Assembly: GCA_001798595.1 (NCBI GenBank)
Contig: MGSS01000158.1
Coordinates: 1-35,826, forward strand
DNA from: Deltaproteobacteria bacterium RIFCSPLOWO2_12_FULL_60_19
GTDB taxonomy: Bacteria > Desulfobacterota > Binatia > UBA9968
Direction: 5' to 3'
Length of the DNA: 35,826 nucleotides
Within the stretch, counting starts at the first letter, position 1; every line of letters begins with the position of its first letter. Position numbers and translations under genes: made by a program. Shown piece after piece: positions 8,428 through 26,119 of this stretch. Under the pieces are notes generated by a model, which saw nothing but the letters and a program-made list of their open reading frames with translations, made no database searches and had not been told where the DNA came from.

Positions 8428-9351
8428 ATGGCTACGATTAAACTGGTTGCCGGTTACGCGACGATCGGGCAGGGCGCGGGTCCGATGATCGTGACTGAGA
8501 AGGCGGGCCTGTTCGCAAAGCACGGGCTTGAGGTCGAGACTCGGCTGATGGGCGGCGCGACGGGCGTTGTCAGAGGCCTCATCAGCGGAGAGATCCTGTT
8601 CGGCAATCTGGCGGCGCCGGCTCTTCTGAAGGCGGTCCTAACGCAAAGCGCGGATCTTGTATTTCTCACCGGCGGCATCAACCAGCAGTTTTTAGCGGCC
8701 CGGCCGGGCATCAGAGATCGCAAGGAGTTAGACGGCGCAAGGATCGGCCTGGTCGGCGACCCCGGACTGAACGACGTGCTGGTCCACTTCGTGATGGAGC
8801 AACTGGAGAAAGAAGGTGTTAGCGGTCTTCGCCTTGCGCCGATCCCAAGCGGCGGGAGAGAAGGCATGGCGCTGCTTCTTCAAGGGCAGTGCGACGCTCT
8901 CGTGATGACGCCGCCTGAAGCTATCGAAGCGAGGCGGCAAGGTTGCTCGTTTCTCGTGGATTTTGCCGAGTTCGGCTTAAACTACGCTTTGGGCGGCATC
9001 GCGACGCGGCAAAGAACAGTCGAACGCGAGCCGGACGTCACAAAGAGATTCGTTCGAGCCTACGTGGAGGGGATGCACCGCTACCGGACGGACCGAGATT
9101 TCACCATTCAGGTGCAGCAGGAGTACAGCGGCATCGCCGACCGCTCGATCGCCGAAGAGACTTACGATCTCACCCAGCCTGGAATGCCGAAAGTACCTTA
9201 CCCTGTGCCTGAGGCCCTTGCCAAAGCGCTTAAAGTTATGTCCAGAGACTTGCGGCCCGCTGCGACCGCCGACCCTCGCCGCTTCGTCGACGATCGTTTG
9301 ATCCGCGAGCTGGAACAAGAAGGGTTCATCGCCTCACTGTACGCGGTTTAA
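8428..9351 (+). CDS. ABC substrate-binding protein, NMT1/THI5-like, without signal peptide
   Basis: A 307-residue SBP-fold protein. It begins directly at the first strand of the mature domain (MATIKLVAGYATIGQGAGPM) and then shows typical NMT1 features: KAGLFAKHGLEVE, GLISGEILFGNLAAPALLKA, GITNQQF-like GGINQQFLAARPG, and FVRAYVEGMHRYRTD. ATG 8428 follows AGGTTAGGA. An in-frame GTG at 8398 adds only MSPVPTFRLG, and a TAA at 8392-8394 closes the frame, so no export signal can be gained. Either the protein works in the cytoplasm as a ligand-binding or enzymatic protein, or its leader was lost, perhaps with the upstream repeat. Its 3' end overlaps the convergent hydrolase gene by 26 bp. Confidence 0.8.
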   Translation: MATIKLVAGYATIGQGAGPMIVTEKAGLFAKHGLEVETRLMGGATGVVRGLISGEILFGNLAAPALLKAVLTQSADLVFLTGGINQQFLAARPGIRDRKELDGARIGLVGDPGLNDVLVHFVMEQLEKEGVSGLRLAPIPSGGREGMALLLQGQCDALVMTPPEAIEARRQGCSFLVDFAEFGLNYALGGIATRQRTVEREPDVTKRFVRAYVEGMHRYRTDRDFTIQVQQEYSGIADRSIAEETYDLTQPGMPKVPYPVPEALAKALKVMSRDLRPAATADPRRFVDDRLIRELEQEGFIASLYAV

Positions 9352-10108
9352 GTCTCTTTTGGGGGCACGACGTCACGAAGGCGCTGAAGATTTTTTTCTG
9401 CCAACGGTCTCTATGCGTAAGGAATTCCGGATGCCACTGGACGCCGAGGACGAACGAATGGTCTTTACTCTCGATCCCTTCGATCACGGAGTCGCCGGCG
9501 GTGGCGTTAACGAGCAATCCTTTACCCAGTTCCTTCACCGCCTGGTGGTGCGTGGTGTTGACCTCCAACGAGGCGCGGCCCACGATGGCTCTCAGCTTCG
9601 TGCCCTCGTGAATCCGGACTTCATGTCCGCCGCGATCCTTCAACGCGCCTTGCTCGTGTTTTCCGGCGCCGGCGATCTGCGTCCCGATGTCCTGATAGAG
9701 CGTGCCCCCGACGGCGACGTTGATCGCCTGCGCGCCGCCGCAGATGCCTAGGAGCGGCAGGTCGCGCTTGAGCGCGAGTGAGATCAGCCCCAACTCGAAT
9801 TCCGTCCGCTCCTTGCGGATGTGGCGCAGGCCGTCGATCGGCTTTTCGCCGTAGAATTCAGGATGGATGTCGAAATTTCCGCCGCTCACGACGAGGCCGT
9901 CCAGCCGGTCCAGGTTGGTCCGCATCGTCGCGCGAGAGCCGGTGATCAGCAGCACCATAGGGACGGCGCCCGCTTGTTCGATCGCCCGCGCGTAGCGCGC
10001 CTGGAGGACGATCAACGGCTCGCCTTTTCCGTCGGGCTTCGACGTCGGGGCAGTGGCGACATCGGGCGTAATTCCGATGAGCGGCTGCCTGCGGGAGCGC
10101 CCGGTCAT
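9326..10108 (-). CDS. Gamma-glutamyl-gamma-aminobutyrate hydrolase-like (peptidase C26, class I GATase fold)
   Basis: A 260-residue class I glutamine-amidotransferase-fold hydrolase resembling PuuD, which cleaves gamma-glutamyl amides such as gamma-Glu-GABA. The nucleophile elbow GICGGAQAIN puts Cys at 123; the catalytic His226 and Glu228 are in GVQWHPEF. DGLVVSGGNFDIHPEFYG (70-87) is the usual GG-D-x-P loop of the family. Its ATG overlaps the stop of the upstream lytic transglycosylase by 4 bp (TCAT at 10105-10108 on the + strand), so the two are translationally coupled. The 3' end overlaps the convergent SBP by 26 bp. The true substrate may be another gamma-glutamyl compound. Confidence 0.88.
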   Translation of the reverse strand: MTGRSRRQPLIGITPDVATAPTSKPDGKGEPLIVLQARYARAIEQAGAVPMVLLITGSRATMRTNLDRLDGLVVSGGNFDIHPEFYGEKPIDGLRHIRKERTEFELGLISLALKRDLPLLGICGGAQAINVAVGGTLYQDIGTQIAGAGKHEQGALKDRGGHEVRIHEGTKLRAIVGRASLEVNTTHHQAVKELGKGLLVNATAGDSVIEGIESKDHSFVLGVQWHPEFLTHRDRWQKKIFSAFVTSCPQKRLKPRTVRR

Positions 10109-12144
10109 TTCTCTCCTCCGTAGAGCTTGCGGTAGATTCTCAAATTGCGCAGCACGAGCTTCACGTAGAGCCGGGTCTCGCTGTAAGAGATTCGCTCGAT
10201 GAACTCGTCCTCTTCGACGGGGCCGATCTGTCTTTCCCAGCGCGCCACGGCGTTCTCGCCGGCGTTGTAGGCGGCGATCGCCTTAGCGAGGTTGTTAGAA
10301 TAGCGTCGCAAGAGATCTTTGAGATATTGCGTGCCGAGCGTGAGGTTGAGCACGGGCTCGAAGAGCCGCTCGCGGTCGGGTGACTGAAGGCGAAGCTGTC
10401 GGGCGACGCGGGCGGCCGTCGGTTGGAGCAGCTGCATTAAGCCGAGGGCCGACGCGCGGGAGATCGCATTAGGGTCGAACAAGCTTTCCTGACGGATCAG
10501 TCCCACGACGAGGTATGGATCGAGGCCCTTCTCCTGCGCCAGCTTTTTGACGGTCTCCCAGTAGGCCAACGGGTAGCGGTAACGAAACAGGTCGTCGGAG
10601 CCGCCGGCGAGCTGTCCCGCCAGCACGACGCTGCGGTTGAACGCCAGGTTGCGCTCATACTCTCGGACGAGGAGCAGGCGGAGCGGCAGCGGCTCGACGC
10701 CGCGGTTTCTCATCTCGTCCAGCTCGGCGGTGGCCAACTGGTTGAGCGCCAGCTCCGCCAGCTCGCGCGCCCGCGCGAGGCGAAACGCCTGCGTCGCATT
10801 CAACTGCGGCTCCGGCGCGCTCGCCGGATTCGATTCGGCGGCTCTCTTTTCTTCGACCGCCACTCCCATCCGCTCGAGCCATCCCGCGGCCGCGCCCTTA
10901 TAGTAGCTCTCGTCAGGGTCCCGCAGGATACCGAGAAAAATCTGCTTCGCCTCTTCCTGGCGTTCCGTTCGATAGGCCATGCGGGCCTGCCAGTAGAGCG
11001 CCGCCGCGCCGTACCTCGTGTTGTCCCGCCGAGCCGCGAGCCGCTTAAATGCCGCGTAGGCGGCGTTGTCGTCGCCGCGCAGATAGTAGAGCCACGCGGG
11101 CCTCCAGCCCGCCTCTTCGCGCAGCTCGCGGTCCCGCGATCGCTCGGAGAGAGCCTGATATTGCGCCAGGGCCTGGTCGATGTTGCCCAGGAATTCGTAG
11201 ATGCGCGCGGAAGCGAACTGGGCGTGATCGACGTGCGCGCTCGACGGGTAGCGCTCGCGCAGCCGCCCGAAGTGCTCCAGGGCCTTGAGATTCTCGTCGC
11301 GGTTCCAGTAGATCATCGCGAGGTGGTGCAGCGCCGTGGGCGCCTCCGGGCTGTCCGGGAATTGCTGGACGATTTCCGTCAGCAGCGGCACGGCTTCGTC
11401 TCGCCTGCGCTGCGCGCGATAAACGCTCGCCAGGCTCGTCAGCAGCCGCGGCCGAAGGTCGCTCCGGGGCGTTTGCGCCAGCAGGGCGCGATAGAGCTTT
11501 TCAGCTTCAGGGTAGGCCTGCTCCCGGGTCAACGTCTCCGCTTCGCTCAACTGCGCTTCCGGCGTCGCCAGGCCGAAGAGGTCGGGATACTTCTCCCGCA
11601 GGGCGGCGACCTCTTTTCTTACCGCCGCGCCCCAGCGGGAGAGGGGCGACGATCCCCGCAGCTCCTGGTAGGTGGAATAGCTTTGTTTGAACTCGCCCGT
11701 GATACTATAGGCCTGGCCGAGAAGATAGGACGCCTCGTCCAAAATCTCCCCTTTAGCCTGCAGGGCGCGGAGCGCGCGCAGCTGTTCTATCGCTTGCGCA
11801 TAGTTTGTCTCCGCTAAAGAGAGCTTCGCGAGATCGAGGGTCGCCTGCGGGCGCCAGATGCTCTGAGGAAAGTTTTGCTGAAGCCTGGCGATGTGCCGTT
11901 TCGCGCTGTCGCGGTCTTGCCGGGCGAGGGCGAGCTGCGCGAGATAGTACAGGCTGTAATCTTCCAGCGGGTAGCCGCGGTCGAGAGTCTTGAGAAAAAG
12001 GGCTTCGGCCTCCGCTCCTTTATTTTGCGAGAACAGCGCATAGGCCGTGGAAAATAGCTCGCGCGGGGCGATTTCCTCGGCGGCGAGGGAAGACGCCCAG
12101 CAAGGCCAGGCAAGGGCGAGTAGGAAGGTCCAAACTTGCCGCAT
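10105..12144 (-). CDS. Soluble lytic murein transglycosylase, Slt-type with TPR-like repeats
   Basis: A 679-residue periplasmic protein. A signal peptide (MRQVWTFLLALAWPCWASSLAAEE) is followed by about 450 residues of alpha-helical TPR-like repeats (for example DYSLYYLAQLALARQDRDSA, APTALHHLAMIYWNRDENLKA). The C-terminus carries an SLT domain. The catalytic Glu is E553 in LIRQESLFDP; the other family marks are SRASALGLMQLLQPTA, NLTLGTQYLKDLL and AIAAYNAGENAVARW. It should cleave peptidoglycan glycan strands to 1,6-anhydro-muramoyl ends during growth or recycling. The helical part corresponds to the ring-shaped U domain of Slt70. It overlaps the downstream hydrolase by 4 bp. A weak hairpin (AAAAC/GTTTT) lies upstream, toward the esterase gene. 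Confidence 0.92.
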   Translation of the reverse strand: MRQVWTFLLALAWPCWASSLAAEEIAPRELFSTAYALFSQNKGAEAEALFLKTLDRGYPLEDYSLYYLAQLALARQDRDSAKRHIARLQQNFPQSIWRPQATLDLAKLSLAETNYAQAIEQLRALRALQAKGEILDEASYLLGQAYSITGEFKQSYSTYQELRGSSPLSRWGAAVRKEVAALREKYPDLFGLATPEAQLSEAETLTREQAYPEAEKLYRALLAQTPRSDLRPRLLTSLASVYRAQRRRDEAVPLLTEIVQQFPDSPEAPTALHHLAMIYWNRDENLKALEHFGRLRERYPSSAHVDHAQFASARIYEFLGNIDQALAQYQALSERSRDRELREEAGWRPAWLYYLRGDDNAAYAAFKRLAARRDNTRYGAAALYWQARMAYRTERQEEAKQIFLGILRDPDESYYKGAAAGWLERMGVAVEEKRAAESNPASAPEPQLNATQAFRLARARELAELALNQLATAELDEMRNRGVEPLPLRLLLVREYERNLAFNRSVVLAGQLAGGSDDLFRYRYPLAYWETVKKLAQEKGLDPYLVVGLIRQESLFDPNAISRASALGLMQLLQPTAARVARQLRLQSPDRERLFEPVLNLTLGTQYLKDLLRRYSNNLAKAIAAYNAGENAVARWERQIGPVEEDEFIERISYSETRLYVKLVLRNLRIYRKLYGGEK

Positions 12145-12198: not shown

Positions 12199-13971
12199 CT
12201 ATCTGGCAGGCGCCTGCATCCGCTCGCGCGACTCCACGACCAGATCGTAGAGCCCCTGCCGCGCCTCTTCATCGACGATGTTGGGGGAGGCGCCTAGGTT
12301 GGCGGCGACCTCGTCCTGGCTGAAAATGAAGGCCTTCCAAACCTCGGGGGGATAGGATTCCAGGGGCAGGGCAAGACCGCCGTGGGGGGAGCCGTGGGGG
12401 ATGGTGACGTGATGGCTTTGCGATCCGACGCCGCCTAGGGTGTGACAGTACACGCAGCCGTTGCGGAAGGTCAGGGCCTCGTAGAGTTCTTTGGGAAGAT
12501 GGCGGAGCGGCTCGAGCGGATCTTTCTCCGTCAGCTGAAAGCTGTTCTCGGTCAGGGCGTAGTGTGACGCCTGGGGTCCGAACTCCGGGGGCGCCGGCTC
12601 CAGAAAATGAATGAACGCGCCGAGCGGCCGCGCCATCATCGGAGGCGGCGGGCTCTCCTTCCACGAATATTCGCGCAGCCCCCGATAGAAAACGCCCAAT
12701 CGAAATAGATTCCGCTCGTCGTCGATGCCGATGACGATGACCGGCTTGTAGGGCTCGATCCGCCGCCGGTCCCAGAATATTTTTTCGTTGCGCAGGTTGG
12801 TGATGGTGAGGTAGTTTCCGCCGCCGATTTTTTCCTGCGGCACGGAATCCAGGTAGGAGAGAAGATCGATGGCCGCATAGGATTCGAGCGGCAGATCCAG
12901 CAGCTCGTATCTCATCGTGGTGTAGACCGGCAGCAGCTTGGCCACCAATCGCTGGTCGACGGGAAAGGAGCGAAGCAGTTTTTCGTCGCGCCAGAAAGGC
13001 AGGGTCGAGAACGGCAGATTGGGCCAGCTGCGTTTTGTCCCGAAGAACCACGCCCTCGGCTCCGGCAGGGGCGCTACTTTGAGAAATTCGAGAATCAGCT
13101 CGCGCACCGGGTTATCCACGCCCGCCAGTTGCGTAAGAGAAAAATGGTTTCGGTCGGGGATAAGGTACTGCTCGACCCTTGAATGACCCGCGGCGCGGAG
13201 CGCGTTGGCGAATTTTCTCGCTTCCAGGGGGAAGCCGGGAAAGTCGCTCTCAGCCGCGAGGATGAGAAACGGCGGAGCGGCGGCGCGGATGTGGGTCGTC
13301 GGGGAGGCGGCCTTGAGGATGTCCGGATTCTCGCCGAAGGTCTGCTGAACGGCCGCTCTCTGCTGGTCCGAGCTTGCCGCTGTTGGATGGAGATTGTAAA
13401 TCCCGCTGAGGGCGATGACGCCCGCCAGCGATTGGGAACTCAGGCGGTGAGCGCCCAGATACGCAGGGTCCAGCGCCACCAGCGCGGCGAGATGTGCTCC
13501 TGCCGAATGACCGGCAAGGACGATCCGTCGGCCGTCGTATCCATACTTGTTAGCCTCGCGCGCGAGATGGGCGACGGCGGCGGCTACGTCTTGGGCCTGG
13601 GTGGGATGGCGGTGGGTCGGCGCGAGACGATAGCGAACCAGAGCGACGGCGACGCCGCTAGGCACGAGCGCGTCGGTTACATCCGGGCCGATCCGATAGT
13701 TATCGTCGGAAAGCAGCCAGAATCCGCCGTGGACAAAAACAACCAGCGGCGGTTTCACCGCGGATTTCGGCGGCAAATATAAATCCAAGGTCTGGCGACG
13801 GTCGACGGTTTTCGCTGTTGTCTTGGTGTAGGGGATATCGCGAACGATGCTCGGTTTGGAGGCCGCTACGGATTGAGCGGGGGCCGCGGGCGGCGTTGTA
13901 GTCCCCAGATTGTATAGAGCCCACAAGGCTAGGCTGAGTGCTGCGGCGCGGAAATGGAAAAGGGGATGCAT
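12199..13971 (-). CDS. Exported alpha/beta-hydrolase (BD-FAE esterase) fused to a C-terminal CxxCH (cytochrome c-like) domain
   Basis: A 590-residue fusion. Residues 1-33 are an export signal or membrane anchor. Residues about 40-298 are an esterase/lipase domain: oxyanion motif HGGFW (81-85), nucleophile Ser156 in GHSAGA, likely acid D243 in ESDFPG and His276 in DRNHF. Residues about 300-480 form a middle region I do not recognise. Residues 495-590 contain CVYCH (506-510; 12442-12456), a c-type heme attachment site. It is preceded by LPKELYEALTFRNG, and H520, H521, H526 and H530 follow as possible distal ligands. Export is consistent with periplasmic heme attachment. Possible roles are an ester-hydrolysing redox protein or a two-domain catabolic enzyme; this is inference. 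It is divergent from the LLM oxidoreductase operon, sharing the 13972-14120 region. Confidence 0.8.
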   Translation of the reverse strand: MHPLFHFRAAALSLALWALYNLGTTTPPAAPAQSVAASKPSIVRDIPYTKTTAKTVDRRQTLDLYLPPKSAVKPPLVVFVHGGFWLLSDDNYRIGPDVTDALVPSGVAVALVRYRLAPTHRHPTQAQDVAAAVAHLAREANKYGYDGRRIVLAGHSAGAHLAALVALDPAYLGAHRLSSQSLAGVIALSGIYNLHPTAASSDQQRAAVQQTFGENPDILKAASPTTHIRAAAPPFLILAAESDFPGFPLEARKFANALRAAGHSRVEQYLIPDRNHFSLTQLAGVDNPVRELILEFLKVAPLPEPRAWFFGTKRSWPNLPFSTLPFWRDEKLLRSFPVDQRLVAKLLPVYTTMRYELLDLPLESYAAIDLLSYLDSVPQEKIGGGNYLTITNLRNEKIFWDRRRIEPYKPVIVIGIDDERNLFRLGVFYRGLREYSWKESPPPPMMARPLGAFIHFLEPAPPEFGPQASHYALTENSFQLTEKDPLEPLRHLPKELYEALTFRNGCVYCHTLGGVGSQSHHVTIPHGSPHGGLALPLESYPPEVWKAFIFSQDEVAANLGASPNIVDEEARQGLYDLVVESRERMQAPAR

Positions 13972-14071: not shown

Positions 14072-14100
14072 TTGACAGAAACGCGGCGTGGAAATATGGG
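14072..14100 (+). promoter_or_regulatory. Probable sigma70 promoter of the LLM/HyuAB operon
   Basis: A perfect TTGACA (14072-14077) is followed after 17 bp by TATGGG (14095-14100), a weak -10. The strong GGGGAGGAG ribosome site (14107-14114) and ATG 14121 follow. An upstream GTG at 14088 would fall inside this promoter, which supports the ATG start. Confidence 0.4.
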
Positions 14101-14120
14101 TGGGAGGGGAGGAGTTTTCG

Positions 14121-15197
14121 ATGCAGCATTGGGAAATCGGCATCCAGCTGTGGCCCTGGTACTCGGTGAAGCAGCTGCTCGCCTACGCGGAGCGGGCGGT
14201 GGAGTCCTATCCGTTCGACCAGATCTGGATGTGCGACGAGTTTCAATACGAAGACTCCATGACCGTGCTGGCGGCGATGGCGATGCGCCTCAACGTCTCG
14301 GTCGGCACGATGGTGACTTTTCCTCATCGCAATCCCATGGAGCTGGCCCAGCGCTTCTCCAGCGTCGCGGGCCTGATCCACGAGGGGCGGGAAGTTTCAG
14401 CCGGCATCGGCGCCGGCGGCGCGGTCCAGGAGCAGGTGGTGAGCGAGAAGACCGCGCCGATGGCGGTGATGGAGGAGACCACGCGCTTTCTAAAATCGCT
14501 ATTTGCCGGCGAGAGCGTCGAGCTGAGTAACTATCCCAAGCTCTCCGCGCGCTTTCGCTATAATCAGCGAACCAAGGCAAAACTCTATTTCCCGCCGAAA
14601 CCTAAAGTTCCGGTCTATCTTGCCGCCGGCGGGCCGAAGATGTTCGAGATGGCCGGAAGGTTGGGCGATGGCGTGATCCTGACTCAACTGAATCCCTGGA
14701 CATCGCTCTCCGGCATCCGCCGCGGCATGTTCCAGCAGGCGGTGCAGATGGTTGAAAACGGGCGCAAAGCGGCCGGCGGCAACGGAGGGTTCAAAAAAAT
14801 CTACAACCTCCACATCTCCGTTTCCAAGGACGGGGACAAGGCCAGGCAGTGGGCCAAGCGCAACACTTCCTACGGACTGGCGGGCAGCAGGGCGCGTTAT
14901 CCCGATGTGCTCCAGGCGACCGGCGTGAATCTCGCCGACGTAGAGACCGTGCGCGACGCCTACGTCAAAGGGCTGGGCGTCGAGGAGGCGGCGCGGCGGG
15001 TATCGGATGAACTACTCGAAGACGCGGGCTTCATCGTCGCCGGCACGCCGAAAGAGGTCCTGGCCAAGTGCGAGGCGATCTTGCCCCTGGTGCGCGACTA
15101 CGGCGTCGATCAACTCGTAGTCGGCGTGCCGCTGGGGCCGAACGTTCCCGAGGCGCTGGAAATCATCTCGAAGGAGATCATCCCCGCGCTCAAATGA
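14121..15197 (+). CDS. LLM-class (luciferase-like) flavin/F420-dependent oxidoreductase
   Basis: A 358-residue TIM-barrel oxidoreductase of the bacterial luciferase / methylene-tetrahydromethanopterin reductase superfamily. Recognisable segments are the N-terminal IGIQLWPWYSVKQLLAYAE, FDQIWMCDEFQYEDSMTV, NVSVGTMVTFPHRNPM (normally contacts the cofactor phosphate region), SAGIGAGGAVQEQVV and the later VPVYLAAGGPKMFEMAGRLGDGVI. Members use FMN or F420; sequence alone does not decide which. It is the first gene of a coupled operon: its stop overlaps the start of the small CxC protein by 4 bp. In this setting it could oxidise or monooxygenate the substrate before HyuA/HyuB action, which is inference. 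Confidence 0.87.
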   Translation: MQHWEIGIQLWPWYSVKQLLAYAERAVESYPFDQIWMCDEFQYEDSMTVLAAMAMRLNVSVGTMVTFPHRNPMELAQRFSSVAGLIHEGREVSAGIGAGGAVQEQVVSEKTAPMAVMEETTRFLKSLFAGESVELSNYPKLSARFRYNQRTKAKLYFPPKPKVPVYLAAGGPKMFEMAGRLGDGVILTQLNPWTSLSGIRRGMFQQAVQMVENGRKAAGGNGGFKKIYNLHISVSKDGDKARQWAKRNTSYGLAGSRARYPDVLQATGVNLADVETVRDAYVKGLGVEEAARRVSDELLEDAGFIVAGTPKEVLAKCEAILPLVRDYGVDQLVVGVPLGPNVPEALEIISKEIIPALK

Positions 15198-21676: not shown

Positions 21677-22237
21677 ATGAGAGACGGCGGTCGAAAGAGA
21701 GTTAGGAAAAAATTAAAGCGGGAATTGCAGGCGAAGGATACCTGGTATCCCCGCCTTATCAAAGAACTCGAGCAGATGAATCACCGGGCGGAGACGGGGA
21801 AGATCGTCGTCCGCGCCAAAGAGACGCCATGGATGCAGAACCGCAACGCCAAAGTGCGTTACTACTTCATGCCCTACAAGACCGACACGGCGCTGCAGAC
21901 GATGCAGGCCTTCGAGCATGTCATCCATCGCCACTCCGGCAAGCATCGTCACCAGGGCGGCCTGGCGATCTTCGTTCTGGACGGCACGGGCTACACGCTG
22001 GTGGATGGCAAGCGCCACGATTGGAAGGCCGGGGATCTCATTCTCCTGCCGATCAGGCCGGGCGGCGTCTCGCACCAGCACTTCAACGCCAATCCCAACA
22101 AGCCGGCGCGCTGGCTCGCGTTGATCACGAACACCTACCGGGCGCACCTGGGCTACGAGATCGTCCAGATCGAAGATTCGCCGGATTGGAAGGGGTCATG
22201 GGAGAAAAGTGTCAGGCACCAGGCTGGTTCAAAGTAG
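21677..22237 (+). CDS. Cupin-domain protein with His-x-His site
   Basis: A 186-residue cupin with a basic N-terminal extension (RKRVRKKLKREL). Motif 1 is SGKHRHQGGLAIFVLDG: HxH is present but the usual Glu three residues later is Gly. Motif 2 is PIRPGGVSHQHFN, giving one or two more histidines. A three- or four-His site is therefore possible. AAGGGAGGGAAC lies just upstream of ATG 21677. The stop TAG (22235-22237) is inside the next repeat, and the last residues are encoded at its edge. The neighbouring gene is a close paralogue that lacks all these ligands. Function unknown; binding or dioxygenase-like chemistry are both possible. Confidence 0.82.
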   Translation: MRDGGRKRVRKKLKRELQAKDTWYPRLIKELEQMNHRAETGKIVVRAKETPWMQNRNAKVRYYFMPYKTDTALQTMQAFEHVIHRHSGKHRHQGGLAIFVLDGTGYTLVDGKRHDWKAGDLILLPIRPGGVSHQHFNANPNKPARWLALITNTYRAHLGYEIVQIEDSPDWKGSWEKSVRHQAGSK

Positions 22238-22325
22238 TTCAAAGTTGTTCAAGGTAGTTCAAGTCGTTCAAACCATTTTGAACCACGTTGAACAGTTTTG
22301 AACCCCTTGAACAAGTCGAACAGGG
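22225..22325. repeat. Palindromic element with repeated-oligomer arms (GTTCAAAG type)
   Basis: The left arm (22225-22271) is five copies of a degenerate roughly 10-bp unit: GTTCAAAGTA, GTTCAAAGTT, GTTCAAGGTA, GTTCAAGTC, GTTCAAACC. The right arm (22276-22325) is the complementary series: TTTTGAACC, ACGTTGAAC, AGTTTTGAACC, CCTTGAAC, AAGTCGAAC. The element lies between the two paralogous cupins and contains the stop codon of the first. It has the same architecture as the other palindromes but an unrelated unit sequence. Confidence 0.8.
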
Positions 22326-22351
22326 GTAAACGACTCACGGAGACACAGAAA

Positions 22352-22858
22352 ATGAAGAAACAAGAGAACTTGTTGGATGCCTTGATCGATTTGCGAGACC
22401 GTTACCGGCGGCAGGCGGAGCGGGGAATCAAGATCGTCCGCGGCGACGATCTCCCATGGGAGATAAACCGCCAGGGAAAGATGCGCTGGTATCTGCACCC
22501 GGCGAAAGATGACACTGCGATCCGCAGCCTGGTCGTCTATATGCAGGAGATCGAGCCGGGTGGACGGTCGGGAAAGCAGGCGTCGCCGGGCGGCATCGTC
22601 CATTATATGCTGGACGGCAAGGGCTACGTCGTGGTGAACGGCAAGAAGCATTCATGGACGAAAGGGGATTGCGTCGGCCTGCCGATTCTATCGCGGCCCG
22701 TCGAATATCAATTTTTCAACATCGACAAAAAGCTCGCGGCGCGCTTCATCGCGGCGACGCCCAATTTGTTTGAAGTTCTCGGTGTCGATATGGGAACGCG
22801 CTTTGAGCAGTTAGAGCCGGCCTCGATCTGCTCCAAGAGCTCAGGAAGGAGGCGCTAA
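22352..22858 (+). CDS. Cupin-fold paralogue lacking metal ligands
   Basis: A 168-residue paralogue of the preceding cupin. The alignment is clear: SGKHRHQGGLAIFVLDG in the neighbour is SGKQASPGGIVHYMLDG here, and GGVSHQHFN becomes RPVEYQFFN. Both motif 1 histidines and both motif 2 histidines are thus replaced (Gln, Ser, Tyr, Phe). The flanking fold signatures DGKGYVVVNGKKHSWTKGD and GLPIL remain. It is likely non-metal, perhaps a structural or regulatory partner that forms a heteromer with its neighbour, or a ligand-binding protein; this is inference. ATG 22352 has GGAGA upstream; a TTG further upstream would lie in the repeat. It ends 1 bp before the next SBP. Confidence 0.8.
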   Translation: MKKQENLLDALIDLRDRYRRQAERGIKIVRGDDLPWEINRQGKMRWYLHPAKDDTAIRSLVVYMQEIEPGGRSGKQASPGGIVHYMLDGKGYVVVNGKKHSWTKGDCVGLPILSRPVEYQFFNIDKKLAARFIAATPNLFEVLGVDMGTRFEQLEPASICSKSSGRRR

Positions 22859-25033: not shown

Positions 25034-26119
25034 ATGACACCGGAAGAAATTGCGCGCCAGCCGATTACGGATCGGCGGAGTTCTTACGTGAAGTGGGTGG
25101 AGTCGGAGGGGCTGCCGCTCGTCCATGGATTCTTTATCGGCGACGTCAGGACGGTTTCGTTGGGACATTGGGAGCGCATCGGCGGCCCGGCGGCGCGCGT
25201 TTGCCTCGAAGGCGCCGGAGAGACGGACGACGCCTACATCTGCGAAATTCCGGCCGGCAAGTCGCTCAAGCCGCAAAAACATTTTTTCGAAGAGCTGGTC
25301 TATATAGTCAAAGGCCGCGGGGCCACCACCGTATGGCAGGACGGCGGCGCCAAAAGGACCTTCGAATGGCAGGAGGGATCGCTTTTCTCGCCGCCGTTCA
25401 ACGCCTGGCACCAGCACTTCAACGGCAGCGGCAGCGAGCCCGCCCGATTCGTCGGTGTCACCAGCGCGCCGATCATGATGAACCTTATCCACAACACCGA
25501 TTTCATTTTCGGCTGCGACTATCATTTCAAAGACCGGTTCAACTCGGAGGGGGATTATTTCAACGGCGAGGGGCGATGGCTGCCCGGCCTGGTCTGGGAG
25601 ACTAACTTCGTAGCGGACGCGCGCAGCTTTCAATTAATGGACCGCAAGGAGAGAGGCGCCGGCGGCCAGCTCGCCCATTTCGAGCTGTCGGGCAATACGA
25701 TGTGCGGTCACATCGCTCAATTTCCGGTAGGCACCTACAAGAAGGCCCACCGCCATGGGCCGGGCGCGCATGTGTTGGTCCTGAGCGGGAAGGGCTATTC
25801 GCTCATGTGGCGCGAGGGCGAGCCGATGCAGCGATTCGATTGGGGGCCGGGCAGCCTGGTGGTGCCGCCGGACCGGTGGTTTCACCAGCACTTCAACGCC
25901 GGCTCCGAACCCGCCCGCTATCTGGCGCTGCGCTGGGGAAGCAAAAAATTCTACGGGATTATGGGGGAGGGCAGCGACCGGCCGTTCAAGAGCATCAAGC
26001 TGGGCGGAGATCAGATCGAATATGAGGACGAAGACCCGGTCGTCCGGCGCATGTTCGAAGAGGCGCTCGCCCAAGCCGGAATCGAGAGCAAGATGGCGCC
26101 GTTTTACGCGAAGAAGTAA
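25034..26119 (+). CDS. Bicupin (two-cupin-domain) protein
   Basis: A 361-residue protein with two cupin domains. In the N-terminal half, motif 1 is KPQKHFFEELVYIVKGRG (one His plus Glu) and motif 2 is PPFNAWHQHFN. In the C-terminal half, motif 1 is KKAHRHGPGAHVLVLSGKG and motif 2 is PPDRWFHQHFN. The halves thus have different metal sites. Length is near that of gentisate-type dioxygenases, but the usual sequence marks are not evident. Similar bicupins are often labelled as ethanolamine ammonia-lyase-activating-like, without firm function. The last 24 codons are duplicated at 30168-30242. It is convergent with the REC-GAF kinase, 9 bp apart. Confidence 0.83.
   Translation: MTPEEIARQPITDRRSSYVKWVESEGLPLVHGFFIGDVRTVSLGHWERIGGPAARVCLEGAGETDDAYICEIPAGKSLKPQKHFFEELVYIVKGRGATTVWQDGGAKRTFEWQEGSLFSPPFNAWHQHFNGSGSEPARFVGVTSAPIMMNLIHNTDFIFGCDYHFKDRFNSEGDYFNGEGRWLPGLVWETNFVADARSFQLMDRKERGAGGQLAHFELSGNTMCGHIAQFPVGTYKKAHRHGPGAHVLVLSGKGYSLMWREGEPMQRFDWGPGSLVVPPDRWFHQHFNAGSEPARYLALRWGSKKFYGIMGEGSDRPFKSIKLGGDQIEYEDEDPVVRRMFEEALAQAGIESKMAPFYAKK

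Follow-up and report, generated by a model that had tools for sequence, protein, structure and literature searches.

A predicted BD-FAE-type esterase with a conserved, CxxCH-bearing C-terminal extension in one bacterial family

The window analysed here, a stretch of 35,826 nucleotides, encodes an esterase prolonged at its C-terminus by two conserved regions, the second of which carries a CxxCH motif. The fusion is a real, narrowly distributed and conserved new architecture built on a known type of esterase. As to what the whole protein represents, the chances seem about even, judging from the sequence, that it is an exported BD-FAE/HSL-like esterase followed by a middle region of unrecognised fold and by a tail bearing a single covalent c-type heme, in a fold far from that of class I cytochromes.

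Gene and Domain Organization

The gene lies on the minus strand, running from an ATG at 13971 to 12199 and specifying 590 amino acids plus a stop codon; on the plus strand of this interval, stops interrupt the first reading frame. An earlier, sequence-only reading had placed the feature correctly at 12199-13971, to which we add the strand. The same reading had described a three-part polypeptide composed of an esterase, an unrecognised middle region and a CVYCH-containing tail, and this description is borne out, the same order being found in relatives. The gene is not a chance open reading frame: a second copy, 68% identical over residues 30-588, is present in the host's own genome, and five more members of the family have the parts in this order.

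The N-terminus (residues 1 to about 32; 13876..13971, minus strand) is hydrophobic and resembles a signal peptide by eye; across relatives it is hydrophobic yet poorly conserved. Its character makes it likely that the protein is exported and is either periplasmic or secreted. The esterase domain follows (residues ~42-298; 13078..13848, minus strand). It matches two Pfam families, BD-FAE (PF20434; residues 62-243, E=7.9e-36, 124 bits against a curated cut-off of 26.8) and Abhydrolase_3 (PF07859; residues 77-276, E=4.9e-21, 75.9 bits against a curated cut-off of 25). Matches to NCBIfam, mostly to esterases and lipases, were confined to the N-terminal half, and none attained its curated cut-off. 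The solved esterase nearest by sequence is 4zrs, with which S156, within the nucleophile elbow GHSAG (residues 154-158; 13498..13512), D243 (13243..13245) and H276 (13144..13146; all on the minus strand) can be aligned, as can the HGG of residues 81-83. From what is known of the family, we take the 4zrs residues opposite S156, D243 and H276 to be its catalytic Ser, Asp and His. D243, H276 and HGG are invariant in a five-row alignment of the copies, and GHSAG is intact in all six copies that can be read at this point, the copy from genome G024 being masked there. The Pfam matches, the 4zrs alignment and the conservation among copies together uphold the earlier claim of a complete BD-FAE-type triad, S156-D243-H276.

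In all these respects (a common alpha/beta-hydrolase domain, an HGG oxyanion motif, a GHSAG elbow, the Asp and the His), the N-terminal half resembles the HSL-like esterases of the two families, and by analogy with them it would use the usual Ser-Asp-His mechanism. The protein differs from the solved esterases in having some 300 further residues after the esterase domain, with the CxxCH among them: the alignments of the best 60 of 86 matched solved sequences all end at or before residue 288 of the fusion protein. The protein is predicted to be a BD-FAE/HSL-like carboxylester hydrolase with a lineage-specific C-terminal extension.

Distribution and Conservation of the Fusion

A profile of the C-terminal region identified seven copies of the fusion in six of the family's 25 genomes: two in the host genome (G000) and the others in G009, G008, G020, G024 and G011, two copies being broken in their assemblies. 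A search with the whole protein in 97 genomes, the host's own included, agrees with this picture: among the matches listed, all those extending past residue 340 fall in the window's bacterial family. The search for the same fusion in relatives, recommended in the sequence-only reading, thus brought to light the three-part order in five further genomes. Not all copies are continuous. That of G009 (contig C478, locus L006) has a single in-frame TAG and is otherwise conserved downstream; that of G024 contains a masked stretch, and that of G011 is split into two frames by such a stretch. G013 (C205:1512-1619, locus L062) has no more than roughly the final 36 residues, within a 49-residue frame; this piece is either a remnant or an assembly fragment.

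Outside the family, the 148 genomes of the class yielded one further weak match (G030, E 5.7e-4, 53 positions, in a frame with a TAG), and two phylum samples of 395 genomes each yielded no convincing copy. Matches at E<=1 occurred in 35 of the 395 genomes of one sample, only G000 falling below 0.001 and G468 coming next at 0.00138; in the other sample, weak matches were obtained in G147 (0.00345) and G472 (0.00992). We take the matches in G030, G147 and G472, and the others at E<=1, to be due to chance. Five weak loci were viewed as plus-strand frames; three of them are on the minus strand, and the two on the plus strand sit in long frames with no CxxCH in view. Plasmids gave no match by tblastn, and none of 39 candidate stretches from viral contigs held a copy. 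A contig scan with two exact peptide patterns only returned three loci, labelled Deltaproteobacteria DP_1, Syntrophobacter sp. SbD2 and Deltaproteobacteria DP_20, which repeat the copies in G011, G020 and G024. No convincing stand-alone version of the middle or the C-terminal domain came out of the phylum, class, plasmid, viral and contig-pattern scans. As for published work, no title in the mostly non-subscription literature searched describes a fusion of an esterase or hydrolase to cytochrome c; the titles that matched were those of a study of nitrite-reductase domains in Chloroflexi and of a biomineralization review. Among the best-matching titles on BD-FAE and other esterases and on PruR (see below), none names such a fusion.

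The partial copies raise the question of whether the C-terminal parts might be without function, or in decay, at the end of an otherwise ordinary esterase. The in-frame TAG of G009 and the 36-residue remnant of G013 could be read in this way, as could two changes in the tail, namely the absence of 12 residues in G024, shortly before a TSN, and the loss of His510 in G008. Nonetheless, we consider decay improbable. Among five copies, dN is lower than dS in every one of the ten pairs for the middle region and likewise for the C-terminal region; for the esterase this holds in all six pairs that yielded a figure, masked sequence having prevented the calculation in the four that involve G024. The two regions are conserved about as well as the esterase itself, and NGCVYC, SHH and GGxAL are invariant in all seven rows of the tail alignment. 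The short signal region is poorly conserved, and dS was not computable for it in five of the ten pairs.

The CxxCH Tail

The C-terminal region (residues 481-582; 12226..12531, minus strand) contains CVYCH at residues 506-510 (12442..12456, minus strand), confirming the motif noted earlier in this part of the protein. CVYCH is the sole C..CH in the 69,926 residues encoded by all six frames of the window, and the window protein has no cysteines besides C506 and C509. In the five copies whose cysteines were counted, none occurs elsewhere in the window, C91 and G020 copies, whereas the G008 copy has three extra ones near its N-terminus and the G024 copy two (residues 15 and 169). Both motif cysteines are present in all seven copies, as are the V and Y between them. 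His510 is kept in six copies, G008 reading CVYCN, and residue 511 varies among T, S, G and E. Residues 519-521 (12409..12417, minus strand) are Ser-His-His in every copy and include candidate metal or distal ligands. According to the sequence-only reading, the motif had to be conserved in homologues if it was to hold heme. On this point the proposal largely survives, because the fusion, the triad and the CxxCH recur in relatives: the cysteines are kept throughout, and the histidine is missing from one copy.

Heme attachment is the leading reading of these data, with a probability near one half. A serious contender, somewhat less probable but close behind, holds that the tail is not a cytochrome at all; instead, C506/C509 and H520/H521 would make up a Cys2His2 zinc or iron site or a structural disulfide, with His510 incidental. 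In keeping with this possibility, these four residues are invariant in all seven copies, including the one that lacks His510, and the V and Y between the cysteines never change, unlike the varied residues found at these positions in the CxxCH motifs of the same genome's cytochromes. The similarity of the tail to true cytochrome c domains is also weak (see below). On the other hand, an incidental role for His510 fits poorly with its retention in six of seven copies next to a variable residue 511, and a zinc-finger Pfam match, found in one of six members scanned at E=0.042, is not meaningful.

The relationship to cytochromes was evaluated with 26 c-heme domains from the same genome, each having one CxxCH and a downstream Met motif. 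The profile of the family's tails scored 28.6 against this set. None of 150 fully shuffled controls reached this value (mean 10.0), and one of 150 did when only the CxxCH was kept (mean 22.3); against a subset of eight MPN-type domains, 16 of 150 motif-kept controls equalled the real score. The window tail alone scored 30.0 over 17 columns, a value reached by three of 150 motif-kept controls, and the seven copies taken singly ranged from 16.9 to 34.2, the G008 copy with its CVYCN being lowest. Left out in turn, the 26 real domains all scored between 39 and 115 over 73-102 columns, a test in which they are favoured by having close paralogues in the same genome; the window tail scores under every one of them. 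Since the scores beat most controls but the alignment is local, the tail would seem to be more than a bare motif, yet it is no recognisable class I cytochrome. Membership in class I was therefore rejected, all 26 real domains scoring higher than a tail whose similarity is confined to a local stretch.

The best match of the tail to the Pfam cytochrome models (PF00034, PF13442) had E=0.17-0.2, under the cut-off, and the window's own match to PF13442 reached 12.4 bits against a cut-off of 27. In a low-confidence structural model, the tail shares with the class I and cbb3-type cytochromes c of these families a CxxCH that follows a predicted helix by a few residues, and a helix predicted at the C-terminus; ahead of this last helix it has PN where cytochromes have MPN. 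A loose, low-confidence alignment over the full length sets GASPN opposite the MP that usually bears the Met ligand. The tail has no conserved Met: five copies have S before the PN, a sixth has F, and the seventh (G024) reads TSN. Thus, the tail is set apart from class I cytochromes by the lack of a significant family match, a likeness found only around the motif, the lack of a conserved Met and the existence of one CxxCN member. In a second structural search, conducted with a model of pLDDT 51, the diheme cytochrome 2fwt came eighth for the tail (Z 3.7), amid unrelated folds of equal Z. The two models against which a heme pocket might be judged are too poor to decide the matter, with pLDDT values of 51 and 46.

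If the protein is exported to a compartment in which c-heme ligation operates, its CxxCH should become loaded with heme, a consideration that speaks against the disulfide or metal-site alternative. Cytochrome_CBB3 is matched 30 times in the host genome at E<=0.1, 12 of these matches exceeding the curated cut-off, and such a number of cytochromes would imply some c-type maturation in this bacterium. One protein of the cytochrome-c-assembly family is encoded; it is CcsB-like, although its 173 bits fall short of the 187.6 cut-off, and its gene adjoins hemA, a location in which it could, we presume, specify a HemX-like protein instead. No ResB was found in the host genome. Multi-heme proteins are encoded on contigs C112 (loci L074 and L077), C97 and C46 of this genome, together with proteins that combine several c-heme domains, some of them containing repeated "MWN" blocks.

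Taken together, covalent heme attachment appears plausible: the cysteines in all seven copies and the histidine in six speak for it, and the position of the tail below all 26 cytochrome c domains and the one copy without His speak against it. If heme is attached, the small tail would most likely carry a single c-type group in a fold strongly diverged from that of class I cytochrome c. H510 would be the proximal ligand, and with no Met to act as the distal ligand, this role might be filled by a histidine of the conserved SHH (520/521), or the iron might be left open. Such a tail might equally well serve in docking, sensing or stabilising as in electron transfer coupled to hydrolysis. One could tentatively envision an exported hemo-esterase in which an undescribed middle domain is combined with a single heme c in a small, undescribed fold (marked by the lack of a Met ligand and by an invariant NGCVYC followed mostly by H and then by SHH), the redox state of the heme gating, sensing or following hydrolysis.

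Covalent heme binding would make the protein an unusual case of a serine esterase, an enzyme that uses no cofactor, joined to a redox cofactor, and the tail would found a small new family of heme domains. Should the tail prove to be a metal site or a disulfide, it would caution against equating a CxxCH with heme, even where the protein seems to be exported and the bacterium is rich in cytochromes. In both cases, seven sequences now provide an anchor for two conserved regions to which no named family corresponds.

The Middle Region

The middle region (residues 312-480; 12532..13038, minus strand) is kept in relatives and has no significant sequence match in Pfam, NCBIfam or the PDB. Among the matches listed in a Pfam scan of the whole protein, none lies past residue 285, and the part after residue 300 gave no significant hit in Pfam or NCBIfam (best E values 0.042 and 0.049). 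The region was thus rightly called unrecognised when first noticed. AlphaFold models, built from four sequences only, had a mean pLDDT of 51.3 for residues 301-590 and of 45.9 for the whole protein, in which the well-known esterase domain was poor as well; a Foldseek search with the model returned nothing at E<=0.001.

A lead came from the second structural search, in which pterin-binding PruR proteins (a group that includes 7kom, 7kos, 7kou and 7kp2) stood at the top of a weak list: 7kom, 7kos and 7kou occupied rows 1, 2 and 4, with Z of 4.0-4.1 and 95-100 residues aligned, spanning positions 22-166 of the model (residues 322-466). By eye, the pattern Y-x-P-[VA]-I-V...D-x-E-x-N of the middle region also recalls KYxPIxA..DG in 7kom. 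These likenesses raised the possibility of a SUOX/PruR-like pterin-binding fold, which would make the protein an esterase followed by a pterin domain and a heme-like tail. We regard this as unlikely. The structural matches come from a model of pLDDT 51, the search tool itself describes Z values around 4 as common background, and unrelated folds, kinases among them, appear in the same list at Z of about 3-4. Sequence profiles lend no support: in the comparison with 19 PruR-like sequences, 63 of 200 and 74 of 200 shuffles equalled the real score, and against four PruR chains alone the profile gave E=0.058 over 15 columns. PF00174 (Oxidored_molyb) had no match in the six fusion members scanned. 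Viral contigs scanned with one PruR chain gave no match. Because the lead failed the direct profile test, the SUOX/PruR fold was rejected as a claim and the middle region is given no fold assignment.

Genomic Context

The fusion gene is followed, 54 bp past its stop, by a gene for a soluble lytic transglycosylase (SLT with TPRs; 10105..12144, minus strand) and then by one for a Peptidase_C26/gamma-glutamyl-GABA hydrolase-like protein (9326..10108, minus strand). Divergent from it on the upstream side is a gene for a luciferase-like (LLM class) oxidoreductase (14088..15197, plus strand). Reading of N-termini showed no SLT or Peptidase_C26 gene next to the copies in relatives, within the reach of the contigs; therefore, no function is drawn from these two neighbours. 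In G008, G020, G024 and G011, a substrate-binding protein is encoded upstream of the fusion, NMT1/SsuA-like in G020, where it was scanned, and alike by eye in the others; in G009, the protein encoded divergently from the fusion is weakly SsuA-like, and the C91 copy has a similar frame at its side. A cupin gene stands between those for the substrate-binding protein and the fusion in G020 and G024. The G020 cupin, the one scanned, is weakly related to gentisate/5-aminosalicylate dioxygenases, as is a cupin encoded in the window (25034-26116, plus strand), which is 46% identical to it. These hints are circumstantial; they would suit a neighbourhood concerned with taking up and degrading small molecules, aromatic ones perhaps.

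It had been proposed from the sequence alone that an esterase carrying heme would couple hydrolysis to electron transfer, for example by oxidising an alcohol or phenol released in the reaction. The sole pointer in this direction is the gentisate-dioxygenase-like cupin beside two of the relatives' copies, and the redox coupling of hydrolysis is at present unsupported speculation. Elsewhere in the window, two adjacent frames of 186 amino acids (21677-22237 and 22298-22858, plus strand) look alike by eye over their first 70 residues, which are basic and include a "PW" block; the two are possibly tandem paralogues.
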